Below, one piece after another: positions 1,858 through 11,861 of a stretch of 64,000 nucleotides of DNA. The notes under the pieces are model-generated. The model had not been told where the DNA came from. It saw nothing but the letters and a program-made list of their open reading frames with translations, and ran no database searches. The first letter of the stretch is position 1. Every line of letters starts with the position of its first letter. The stretch is taken from the NCBI RefSeq assembly GCF_001368795.1, contig NZ_LN831198.1, positions 1,376,067 through 1,440,066 on the forward strand. Reading direction: 5' to 3'. This stretch comes from Paenibacillus ihuae. GTDB lineage: Bacteria > Bacillota > Bacilli > Paenibacillales > Paenibacillaceae. Made by a program: the position numbers and the translations under genes.

Positions 1858-1893
1858 ATTCTTCATACTTTCCCCAAATTCCATTGGTATTCT
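1858..1893 (+). promoter_or_regulatory. Two-component-type promoter, site 1
   Basis: The half-sites ATTCTTCA (1858-1865) and TTTCCCCA (1869-1876) are 11 bp apart. They are followed by 11 bp and the -10-like TATTCT (1888-1893). The layout matches five other promoters in this region and would drive the operon starting at 1948. Confidence 0.55.
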
Positions 1894-1947
1894 TAATTAC
1901 ATCAAGAACATGTAGTGTAGAGTGCTAATGGAGGGAGGTGTAGAGTT

Positions 1948-2811
1948 TTGAAAACTTTGCGCAGTATTCTTGGATTCACTTTTATTCTGATTATTCTTTC
2001 GGGAGCGGGATACATCGGATGGTTTGTTTCAGAAGAGGGGAATATCTCATGGCCAAGCATTATGAAACCTGAGACTGTGGAGAATGCACATAGTCAGCAT
2101 GCATCAACAGGAGCTTCTTCAACAAAAAGAGAAGACGTGAATCCTGTCGAAAGCTTGCAGGTAAGAGTCTCCAGTTCTTACAAGTCCATTCAGCAGGTAG
2201 CCGAATTAATGACCTCGAGTTCAGTGAATCCTTTACTGACCGAACGTTATCAAAGAGGTTTGTACTCCTTATCGGAGGGCGTGTATCTCATGAATCAACT
2301 GGATCAGAATATGAATGAAATGGTCCGGTTAACGGATTCGGGCGATCCAACTTACCAAGTGTATGCTAATCGTCACAATGTGCTGGTCAAAAATCAGATG
2401 CTGTTGAACACCGTAGCTCAAAAGCTGAGCGATGCCAAAGAATTGTTCTTATCAAATGTAACGATGAATACAACGGGAGATTCTAGCGCAGCTGAAGATG
2501 TACAAGGTGCTAATAAAGCCATCTATCAAATGGCACAAGCGGTAATGGAACTTGAAAGCACCAATCTTTGGCTAGAGGATCAAATCAATCAGACGATGGT
2601 GCAAGCTGAGCAAGCCCAGCAAGCTGCTGATGCGATGGCCATGGAGAAGACAGCTGCGGGTGGTTTCTCGATAGACAAGATTCAAATGCCTGCTCTGTTC
2701 ACTATGATTCCCATACTATTTGCTGTATTGATGCTAATCGGGATTATCGGAGCTACTCGTAGCCTTATGGCTGCCAAACCACAAAAGGTTGATAATGAAC
2801 AAACGGTTTAA
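1948..2811 (+). CDS. Membrane-anchored protein of unknown function, two TM ends
   Basis: The protein has 287 residues and starts at TTG behind a strong GGAGGGAGGTG ribosome binding site at 1929-1939. An N-terminal membrane segment (about residues 7-27) and a C-terminal one (about 248-270) flank a roughly 220-residue, Gln/Met-rich, mainly helical middle part. That part contains heptad-like stretches such as MVQAEQAQQAADAMAMEK, so a coiled-coil outside the membrane is likely. I recognise no catalytic motif. It is the first gene of an operon of small membrane proteins (1948-5271) with 20-46 bp gaps or 4-bp overlaps, under a probable response-regulator promoter. A sensory or scaffolding part of an envelope complex is possible, but function is unknown. 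Confidence 0.75.
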   Translation: MKTLRSILGFTFILIILSGAGYIGWFVSEEGNISWPSIMKPETVENAHSQHASTGASSTKREDVNPVESLQVRVSSSYKSIQQVAELMTSSSVNPLLTERYQRGLYSLSEGVYLMNQLDQNMNEMVRLTDSGDPTYQVYANRHNVLVKNQMLLNTVAQKLSDAKELFLSNVTMNTTGDSSAAEDVQGANKAIYQMAQAVMELESTNLWLEDQINQTMVQAEQAQQAADAMAMEKTAAGGFSIDKIQMPALFTMIPILFAVLMLIGIIGATRSLMAAKPQKVDNEQTV

Positions 2812-2831
2812 TTTTTAAGGAGGGGTAAACA

Positions 2832-3404
2832 ATGATGGATATGAATAATTCAACTACAATGACAGGCGTAAGTAGCTCCGGCAGTATGCAAGGAACCATG
2901 GATATGGGAACTAGCTCAGGTGGTGTACTTAGCGGGCTTCTCTCAACAGTAACGGAACTGCTGTTTGTCGTTCTAATTCTCAGCCTGGTGGTTGGCCTCG
3001 CAGTTTGGCTTAAAAATACTTATTTTAAAGAATCGTATAACAAGGGCAAGCAAATCATTAGTAACGATCCCATGTTAAAAATGATATTTGTTCTGGCCTC
3101 CACTTTGGTAGGCGTAATCGTAATATTGTATCTCCTTGGGATTCTAATGAATGGCGGAGTGAATTCAAATCAGATTGGATTCGTATCGGCCTGGAGCGTT
3201 TCCGGGATTTTAACGTTCTTCGTCAAGATCTTAACCATTTTGTTTGTAGGTGCTTTAATCGGGTTCTTGTTCACATATGTGAAACAAAATATGAGCAGCG
3301 CAGCAGGCAACGGAGCTCTGTTAACGGCAGTAAATGAAACTAAATCGAGTGAAAATGTGGAACTTAAGAAGTCACCAGAAGGTACCCAAGATAAGCTGGA
3401 ATAG
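2832..3404 (+). CDS. Met/Ser-rich N-terminus integral membrane protein
   Basis: This 190-residue protein starts at ATG with AAGGAGGGG upstream. The first 35 residues are rich in Met, Ser, Gly and Thr and poor in charge, a composition seen in extracytoplasmic metal-handling segments. Three hydrophobic stretches follow, at about residues 40-62, 84-107 and 126-150, and then a charged tail. There is no known catalytic motif. It lies 20 bp after the previous gene and 46 bp before the cytochrome b561-like gene and shares their operon. Methionine-rich loops suggest Cu(I)/Ag(I) contact, but this is inference from composition only. Confidence 0.72.
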   Translation: MMDMNNSTTMTGVSSSGSMQGTMDMGTSSGGVLSGLLSTVTELLFVVLILSLVVGLAVWLKNTYFKESYNKGKQIISNDPMLKMIFVLASTLVGVIVILYLLGILMNGGVNSNQIGFVSAWSVSGILTFFVKILTILFVGALIGFLFTYVKQNMSSAAGNGALLTAVNETKSSENVELKKSPEGTQDKLE

Positions 3405-3450
3405 GCAGATAATAAATTGAAGACAAAAATGGATTGAGGTTGATGCGGTA

Positions 3451-3915
3451 ATGAAGTTTGATTTTATCCTACACTGGCTCTGGGCGCTTGTGTTCTCCAT
3501 ATTGGCGCTAAGCGGAATAGCTATGGCAGGAGCGAAATATGGCTGGGTGATGCAATATGATATAGCCATGGCCGATGTAGTACACCGCATTGCGGCAATT
3601 GTATATGTGCTGCTGACACTTATTGTTATTCTCTACGAGATTATTCGAATTCTCAGACGGGATAAGACGATAAAGCCTTGGCTCGTATTCGGCCCATCCG
3701 GTTATGGATTATTCACCTTCATTACTACATTGATCTTCATCATAACGGGTGCTTTTATCTGGCTGTTCATGGATAGTAATAAAGCCGGAACTGCTCTTTC
3801 CTTATGGATCCATGAAAAGCTGACATATCTGGCAGTCGCCAGTGTGATCTGGCACATCTATATGAAGACTCATGCCTTGAAGTGGCCCAAACAAAAAGCC
3901 CGGAAAGCCAAATAA
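3451..3915 (+). CDS. Small four-helix cytochrome b561-like membrane protein
   Basis: The protein has 154 residues and four predicted membrane helices (about 7-27, 45-68, 85-110 and 124-140). Histidines sit at positions typical of bis-haem cytochrome b subunits: His in ILHWLWAL, VVHRIAAI, WIHEKLTY and VIWHIYMK. The fold resembles the gamma subunit of formate dehydrogenase and DUF4405-type cytochromes, which pass electrons between quinol and a partner. No catalytic partner subunit is encoded nearby, so it may serve one of the operon's membrane proteins, for example by reducing a metal or thiol. Its place inside the Met-rich operon is the notable point. The haem ligands are inferred from alignment by eye. 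Confidence 0.72.
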   Translation: MKFDFILHWLWALVFSILALSGIAMAGAKYGWVMQYDIAMADVVHRIAAIVYVLLTLIVILYEIIRILRRDKTIKPWLVFGPSGYGLFTFITTLIFIITGAFIWLFMDSNKAGTALSLWIHEKLTYLAVASVIWHIYMKTHALKWPKQKARKAK

Positions 3916-11108: not shown

Positions 11109-11148
11109 TTCTTCAATTCCTCCATCAAATATAATTACTGCAAGAGTT

Positions 11149-11184
11149 AGTATAAGAGGAAAGTGTGTGGAAAGTATGTAGAAA
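11149..11184 (-). promoter_or_regulatory. Two-component-type promoter, site 5 (minus strand)
   Basis: Read on the minus strand, TTTCTACA (11184-11177) and TTTCCACA (11173-11166) are 11 bp apart. They are followed by exactly 11 bp and TATACT (11154-11149). It lies directly upstream of the minus-strand membrane protein gene. Confidence 0.65.
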
Positions 11185-11211
11185 AGACAGGAGAAGGAGC
11201 ACTGAAGGATC

Positions 11212-11793
11212 TTGGAAACTCTAGCTATACAAAGTGAAGTTATTACGCAATGGTTATTAGAATGGGGAGCCTGGTCCATTGCAGTTAGTTTAATTATTAA
11301 TATTGTCCTTAGTGTGATAGGGTTCATTCCATCAGTAGCTTTGACCACCGTGAATATTGTGGTCTTTGGGCTGGTTCCCGGCTTTCTTATCTCGTTGGCC
11401 GGTGAGATTTCCGGAGCAGCCGTGTCTTATTTCCTTTACCGGAAAGGAATCTGGAAGCTGAAAGGGAAAATTCGATCGCAACCCAAAGTTGGATGGATAT
11501 CCCGGATGAAAACCTTCTCCCCTAAACGTCAGTTTTTCACTGTACTTCTTGCCCGGTTAACTCCGTTTATGCCTTCGTCATTGGTAACCCTAATCTGTGT
11601 TATCTCCGAAGTACGGTTTGCAAGTTTCATAATCGCTTCTGCGATAGGTAAAATACCTTCACTGCTGCTTGAGGCCTTAGCCGGGTATGGATACGCAGGA
11701 CTCGAGGATAATAGTACCAGGTTATTTATTACATTTTTGTTCCTTTTTTTGTTATGCGTTTACGTTTTATTTAACAGAAAGAAAAAGAATTAA
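11212..11793 (+). CDS. VTT-domain (TVP38/TMEM64, DedA-like) membrane protein
   Basis: This 193-residue protein starts at TTG after GAAGGAT. It shows the VTT core: a re-entrant helix region with FIPSVALTTVNIVVFGLVPG, a conserved Gly/Glu-containing segment (AGEISGAAVSYFLYRKG), and LLARLTPFMPSSLVTLICV. Five or six hydrophobic segments cover the protein. DedA/VTT proteins are implicated in lipid scrambling and membrane homeostasis in bacteria. It is divergent from the 11108 gene and shares that control region. The weak start leaves the first residues uncertain. Confidence 0.8.
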   Translation: METLAIQSEVITQWLLEWGAWSIAVSLIINIVLSVIGFIPSVALTTVNIVVFGLVPGFLISLAGEISGAAVSYFLYRKGIWKLKGKIRSQPKVGWISRMKTFSPKRQFFTVLLARLTPFMPSSLVTLICVISEVRFASFIIASAIGKIPSLLLEALAGYGYAGLEDNSTRLFITFLFLFLLCVYVLFNRKKKN

Positions 11794-11826
11794 CGTTATA
11801 TCGAAGACGAAAAGACAAAAAGGGGC

Positions 11827-11861
11827 ATTATATAACAAAAAGTGTAGGAAATATGTAGATT
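11827..11861 (-). promoter_or_regulatory. Two-component-type promoter, site 6 (minus strand)
   Basis: On the minus strand, AATCTACA (11861-11854) and TTCCTACA (11850-11843) are 11 bp apart. They are followed by 10 bp and TATAAT (11832-11827). It points left into the 3' end of the VTT gene, where no minus-strand gene is seen, so it may make an antisense transcript or may be occupied for another purpose. Confidence 0.45.

Follow-up and report, generated by a model that had tools for sequence, protein, structure and literature searches.

A predicted PhoB-like two-component regulon marked by TTTCYACA direct repeats in Paenibacillus ihuae and its relatives

What binds the paired TTTCYACA-like elements that recur ahead of several promoters in a short region of the Paenibacillus ihuae genome, and what is the likely job of the genes behind them? 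The region lies in a 64-kb stretch (the window, to which all positions refer unless a genome coordinate is given) of the 6.7-Mb genome of this soil bacterium. An initial annotation had described six promoters there, each with two half-sites 11 bp apart and a −10 box, and had assigned them to the response regulator encoded at 7070. From sequence comparison, we put at roughly 0.8 the probability that these boxes are binding sites of the 7070 regulator and mark a PhoB-like two-component regulon, in part under its own control, that serves copper/redox handling outside the cytoplasm.

Direct reading of the letters found all six promoters as described. Both strands were scanned for two copies of TTTCYACA with a start-to-start distance of 11 bp and at most three mismatches over 16 positions (the opposite strand of the motif reads TGTRGA-N5-TGTRGA). 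When a TAnnnT hexamer was required 10–11 bp downstream, the window contained exactly six matches, identical to the named six, compared with a mean of 0.065 and a maximum of 2 in 200 dinucleotide shuffles of the window. The bare pair occurred at seven places, the six plus an overlapping third copy at 11173 (minus strand), and since the shuffles gave a mean of 2.2 and a maximum of 7, a bare pair at three mismatches was unexceptional across 64 kb; at two or fewer mismatches, five were observed against a shuffle mean of 0.17 and a maximum of 2. The nine intergenic stretches of at least 60 bp within positions 1–12,000 (1510 bp in total) held seven pairs, six of them with a −10, against means of 0.113 and 0.008 in 1000 shuffles, so that the equal density in shuffled intergenic DNA named at the outset as the outcome that would count against the motif was not observed. 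The half-site spacing was specific, with seven pairs at 11 bp and 0–3 at every other spacing from 8 to 22 bp.

On the plus strand, the boxes lie at 1858..1893 (box 1; ATTCTTCATAC TTTCCCCA, −10 TATTCT), 5617..5652 (box 2; TGTCTTCATCG TTTCCACA, TAAAGT), 6972..7007 (box 3; TATTCACATAT TTTCTACA, TACAAT) and 9482..9517 (box 4; TTTCAACACAA TTTCTACA, TACAAT), and on the minus strand at 11149..11184 (box 5; TTTCTACATAC TTTCCACA, TATACT, with the weaker third copy at 11173) and 11827..11861 (box 6; AATCTACATAT TTCCTACA, TATAAT). The −10 followed at 11 bp in boxes 1–5 and at 10 bp in box 6, as claimed. The claim that the sites precede genes held for boxes 1–5, each upstream of a correctly oriented gene (a Met-rich membrane-protein operon, a lipoprotein, the regulator, a DUF2933 unit and a DUF6803 gene, respectively), and failed for box 6, which no gene faces.

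The same architecture was found in a wider set of 80 loci around relatives of the regulator, from 97 to 40% identity and from Paenibacillus to Halalkalibacter, Niallia, Parageobacillus, Aneurinibacillus, Cohnella and other genera. A position weight matrix (PWM) of 24 positions scored ≥14 at 182 places in these loci compared with 25 for the reversed matrix, and ≥18 upstream of 65 of 2067 open reading frames (ORFs) compared with none. Among the units behind the boxes were the regulator, DUF2933, the lipoprotein, the Met-rich operon, DUF6803 and an LGT-family gene, and further a DUF1541 gene, a DsbD-like gene, a cupredoxin gene and ResB. At strong sites outside the window, the −10 stood 11 bp from the box in 72 of 89, with no more than five at any other distance from 8 to 14 bp, and the consensus was TTTCTWCATANTTTCTACAYATTT followed by TATAAT. 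There was no recognisable −35 element: none of 76 sites reached four of six matches to TTGACA, a level attained by 580 of 5000 random 30-mers from the window. The box thus takes the position of the −35 and keeps a constant spacing to a sigma-A-like −10, as in PhoB-type (class II) promoters, and the tandem direct repeats of ~11 bp are present, spaced and conserved as would be expected for sites bound by an OmpR/PhoB-family protein.

In pho box promoters, PhoB binds 11-bp direct repeats of the half-site CTGTCATA that replace the −35 and lie ~10–11 bp from the −10. The present boxes share the repeat period, the position, the −10 distance and the possibility of tandem arrays, and 16 of 98 sites carry further (third) half-sites in phase with the 11-bp period; they differ in the half-site, TTTCYACA, and in their Met-rich, DUF2933 and DUF6803 targets, which are not phosphate genes. 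Arrays of at least three half-sites at 11-bp steps were also seen at 16738–16771 of locus L157 and upstream of DUF6803 in L124 and L148.

The presence of the motif followed that of the regulator. Orthologues of the 7070 regulator (E ≤ 1e-100) had a patchy distribution, occurring in 60 of 100 congeneric genomes, and the 19-bp motif TTTCYACA-N3-TTTCYACA (at most two mismatches) occurred in 46 of the 100, all of which had the regulator; none of the 40 genomes without the regulator carried it (Fisher 2.6e-16). Weaker regulator matches were counted as absent in six genomes (G002, G003, G007, G012, G015 and G079), none of which has the motif. The reversed pattern was evenly spread, in 4 of 60 genomes with and 4 of 40 without the regulator. 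Because linkage inflates this association, the DUF6803 genes were split by their distance from the regulator: the motif, at the same threshold, preceded 31 of 35 linked (≤15 kb) and 12 of 18 unlinked genes, and the unlinked sites are the stronger evidence. This count used 53 of 58 DUF6803 rows, five partial rows being left out; in the comparison of the 60 and 40 genomes, the DUF6803 list had 45 rather than 47 genomes, G054 and G073 having partial matches only. The distribution and the unlinked sites argue for the proposed tie between regulator and motif.

The P. ihuae genome itself held two perfect matches to the 19-bp motif, box 5 (11184, minus strand) and a site at genome coordinate 2,280,899 (minus strand) directly preceding a DUF6803 paralogue 0.9 Mb from the window. 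No two-component gene was found in the 18 kb read around this paralogue, and its site, of which the initial annotation had no knowledge, is an independent confirmation of the motif. In the genome scan that the initial annotation had called for, the pair plus −10 matched 17 times and the reversed pattern 3 times, whereas the bare pair at three or fewer mismatches gave 218 places against 164 and stands out only with the −10. Ten of the 17 comprised boxes 1–5, the site before the DUF6803 paralogue and four sites in a second cluster at 2.69–2.71 Mb (genome coordinates 2692739, 2704821, 2704832 and 2707684), which encodes a CopA-type ATPase, a DUF326 protein, a Met-rich peptide and a DUF2933-like protein; the remaining seven, in or beside unrelated genes, look like chance. 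The second cluster (G000:C1:2690000-2709500; L062, L231, L232) also has VTT and NlpC/P60 genes and is split by transposase-like genes, as if scarred by insertion sequences.

We searched upstream of orthologues in 101 loci after removal of duplicates, taking PWM ≥14 as a site. Sites preceded 5 of 5 Met-rich operons, 18 of 23 lipoprotein genes, 12 of 18 DUF2933 genes and 16 of 17 DUF6803 genes, the reversed PWM giving one hit for DUF6803 and none for the other three; most lay 72–93 bp ahead of the start codon. No site was found upstream of the kinase (0 of 35) or the ABC gene (0 of 23). For the regulator, a site was present within 300 bp in 17 of 58 orthologues (reversed PWM, 0). The regulator of the two nearest relatives has no site of its own but stands behind the lipoprotein gene, which retains one; the regulator site of L142 and L127 lies farther upstream, in L142 before an LGT-family gene preceding the regulator.

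The 7070 protein (7070..7783, plus strand) contains a receiver domain (PF00072, 115.6 bits) and a winged-helix Trans_reg_C domain (PF00486, 90.2 bits), both above cut-off, and is an OmpR/PhoB-family response regulator. It had been called the only such regulator nearby, and tblastn detected no second regulator or kinase of the 7070 and 7773 families in the window. The recognition helix was near-constant among its relatives (VDTHIKNIREK-like). The protein falls under the cut-off of the PhoB model TIGR02154 (203.3 against 296.2 bits). In the mechanism that we propose, the sensor histidine kinase encoded immediately downstream (7773..9182, plus strand) would phosphorylate the regulator, which would then bind the TTTCYACA repeats as a head-to-tail dimer (or a longer array); covering the place of the missing −35, it would recruit RNA polymerase to the −10 at its fixed distance of 11 bp downstream, in the manner of PhoB at pho boxes. 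The predicted regulon would extend to the Met-rich operon, to the wall-binding lipoprotein and the regulator genes that follow it, to the DUF2933 unit, to two DUF6803 genes and to the second, degraded copper cluster, and its likely job would be extracytoplasmic handling of copper (or copper-linked redox).

The Met-rich operon (1948..5534, plus strand) consists of seven ORFs: 1948–2811, 2832–3404, a cytochrome b561-type protein (3451–3915, PF01292), 3929–4246, 4250–4630, an ORF with a Met/Ser/Gly-rich tail (4627–5271) and a terminal 62-amino-acid ORF (5346–5534). The last is similar to a multicopper oxidase in the N-terminal leader alone, matching the first 57 residues of a 554-amino-acid protein (L157 5713–7377); since the match is confined to the leader, the oxidase itself is missing from the window, though whole in relatives such as L157. 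Box 2 precedes the lipoprotein with cell-wall-binding repeat 2 (5695..6885, plus strand, PF04122). In the near relative L141, the counterpart of window positions ~1781–1822 joins the lipoprotein box directly (9301–9420), as if the Met-rich operon had been lost, and the lipoprotein gene is shorter than in the window. The DUF2933 unit (9555..10280, plus strand) has three ORFs, 9555–9755 (PF11666), 9769–9987 (a weak PF11666 match, under cut-off) and a Met-rich secreted peptide (10023–10280). The DUF6803 membrane protein is encoded on the minus strand (10614..11108, PF20617), and a plus-strand VTT gene lies between it and the NlpC/P60 gene.

Box 6 had been proposed as a promoter of the DUF6803 gene. 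The VTT gene stands in between, its 3′ end to the left of box 6, and DUF6803 has box 5 of its own; box 6 is thus not its direct promoter. Facing the opposite way, it sits immediately ahead of the NlpC/P60 promoter, with ~30 bp separating it from the TTGACA element, in front of a unit (11893..12543, plus strand) that combines this promoter, a c-di-AMP riboswitch belonging to the NlpC/P60 gene (11939–12071, plus strand; RF00379, 74.9 bits) and the gene itself, a possible target. A second RF00379 riboswitch is found in the window at 17746–17888 (minus strand). Box 6 keeps its place not only in the window but also in L126/L143 and in the group L062/L122/L157 with the near copies of these loci, L123/L159; the left neighbours are of three different kinds, and each site has a −10 for leftward transcription. 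Alignment of the upstream DNA of L145, L195 and L147 showed no such site, and only 2 of 11 NlpC orthologues had a site within 300 bp (PWM ≥14). Box 6 may serve NlpC/P60, may make a leftward RNA or may be a leftover.

Copper enters through the neighbours. Of the 80 loci, 41 had copper-type genes (CopA, CopZ, DUF326, DUF1541, multicopper oxidase, CopC/D and cupredoxin) no farther than ~10 kb from the regulator, comprising 12 of 35 (L141–L175), 21 of 28 (L176–L203) and 8 of 17 (L204–L220), and boxes preceded DUF1541 and cupredoxin-CopC/D units in relatives. DUF326 matched at only three places in the P. ihuae genome. One of these lies in the window and encodes a DUF326-type protein of 120 amino acids (20340–20702, plus strand, no box upstream), by family resemblance Csp-like, of the copper-storage kind. 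In Alteromonas, DUF2933 genes accompany copper ATPase genes, according to an excerpt of PMC8478169. The CopA, DUF326, CopC/D and multicopper oxidase neighbours in relatives point to copper, and we favour copper or copper-linked redox stress, with some confidence, as the likeliest signal.

Several observations weigh against the proposed regulon. All eight training sites of the PWM came from the P. ihuae genome, two of them from outside the window. Most of the association across the genus comes from linked genes, and shared inheritance explains part of it; 14 of the 60 regulator-bearing genomes lack the motif at two or fewer mismatches, as do 6 of the 18 unlinked DUF6803 genes (in G018, G019, G044, G048, G053 and G071), although those inspected by eye (L050, L060, L053, L055 and L058, G048 not being among them) carry a TTCTTCATAAATTCCACAT-like or similar weaker version. 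No site precedes 41 of the 58 regulator orthologues within 300 bp. For WalR of S. aureus, repression is associated with sites that lie between −35 and −10, and activation with upstream sites (PMC10746227), and given this precedent the position of the boxes over the −35 makes activation uncertain. With regard to copper, the 41-of-80 figure is a raw count, and no known copper gene is intact at the window's own sites, the oxidase being reduced to its leader.

The best-surviving alternative accepts the regulon and replaces the signal by membrane/redox stress, silver or another thiophilic metal, with the copper genes as mere neighbours. The modelled extracellular sensor domain of the kinase (mean predicted local distance difference test (pLDDT) score of 76.9) has a generic, WalK-like PDC/Cache fold whose many PDC/Cache matches single out no metal sensor, silver-bound CusS ranking only 28th; roughly half of the kinases, chiefly those of Paenibacillus, retain its His and Met residues (H51 in 27 of 54 and M55 in 33 of 54), and cytochrome-c assembly genes (ResB, CcsA, TlpA, CcdA) also stand behind boxes. 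The frequency of copper-type genes near the regulator, the boxes before DUF1541 and cupredoxin-CopC/D units and the excerpted Alteromonas association speak for copper, and we regard a different signal as rather unlikely.

A second alternative, which we consider very improbable, keeps the boxes and changes the binder to WalR or PhoP, present in nearly all Bacillales with tandem hexamers of the same period. TGTRGA-N5-TGTRGA resembles WalR/PhoP boxes, and box 6 adjoins an NlpC/P60 gene, a typical WalR target. The 7070 regulator belongs to the same regulator family as WalR (YycF), and the kinase shares the WalK-like sensor fold and scores best on the WalK and PnpS models, far under their cut-offs. 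A universal regulator would not yield 46 of 60 genomes against 0 of 40, the 7070 regulator itself being patchy; 7070 scores 206.8 bits on the YycF model, under the cut-off of 340; the box targets are not wall or phosphate genes; and the S. aureus WalR motif TGTHH-N6-WGTNDD (PMC10746227) fits only 1 of 11 boxes of the genome. We therefore rejected WalR/PhoP in favour of the 7070 regulator. Least credible of all is an alternative sigma factor that would use the conserved stretch as its −35 region. This would account for the fixed −10 distance and the lack of a canonical −35; it is rejected because sigma factors need no tandem repeat with extra copies in the 11-bp register, the −10 consensus resembles the TATAAT of the main sigma factor, and motif presence tracks the response regulator.

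Among described copper systems, CusRS/CopRS/PcoRS likewise place genes around copper handling under two-component control; unlike them, the present pair scores under cut-off (7070 on the CusR/CopR/SilR model TIGR01387, 169.1 against 279.2 bits; the kinase on the CusS/CopS model TIGR01386, 187.7 against 292.55 bits), its window has no resistance-nodulation-division (RND) efflux or CopAB genes, and its host is Gram-positive. CsoR and CopY share the phylum Bacillota and the control of copper genes but are one-component repressors with other operators, as an excerpt of PMC10141476 has it, in contrast to a two-component regulator with tandem boxes. The CiaR-like box of B. anthracis BAS0540 consists of TTTAAG repeats (PMC4938410). 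We found no account of this regulon or its box in the open-access full-text literature, no open-access paper naming DUF6803 and no PHROGs match for it; among papers on copper and two-component systems in Bacillus or Paenibacillus, none dealt with this system, judging by title or the opening of the abstract. The occurrence of TTTCTACA examined in an open-access paper with a response regulator was a primer.

What is new here is a predicted regulon with its own box, the kind of regulator being already known. Tentatively, and at less than even odds, we suggest that TTTCYACA-N3-TTTCYACA marks an undescribed copper-sensing two-component regulon of Bacillales, in which DUF6803, DUF2933, the wall-anchored CWB2 lipoprotein and the Met-rich membrane proteins would form a new extracytoplasmic copper-handling apparatus and box 6 would reach a wall hydrolase under a c-di-AMP riboswitch. 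The analysis defines exactly, and in a form open to test, the box and the targets of a two-component system whose function is not known and which is found in 60 of 100 congeneric genomes and, judging by the named loci, in other Bacillales genera. It places DUF6803, DUF2933 and Met-rich peptides, none with a known function, in one predicted regulon and suggests a job for them. With CsoR and CopY, the Gram-positive copper regulators of the excerpted source (PMC10141476), being one-component repressors, a copper two-component regulon in these bacteria would, to our knowledge, be new.

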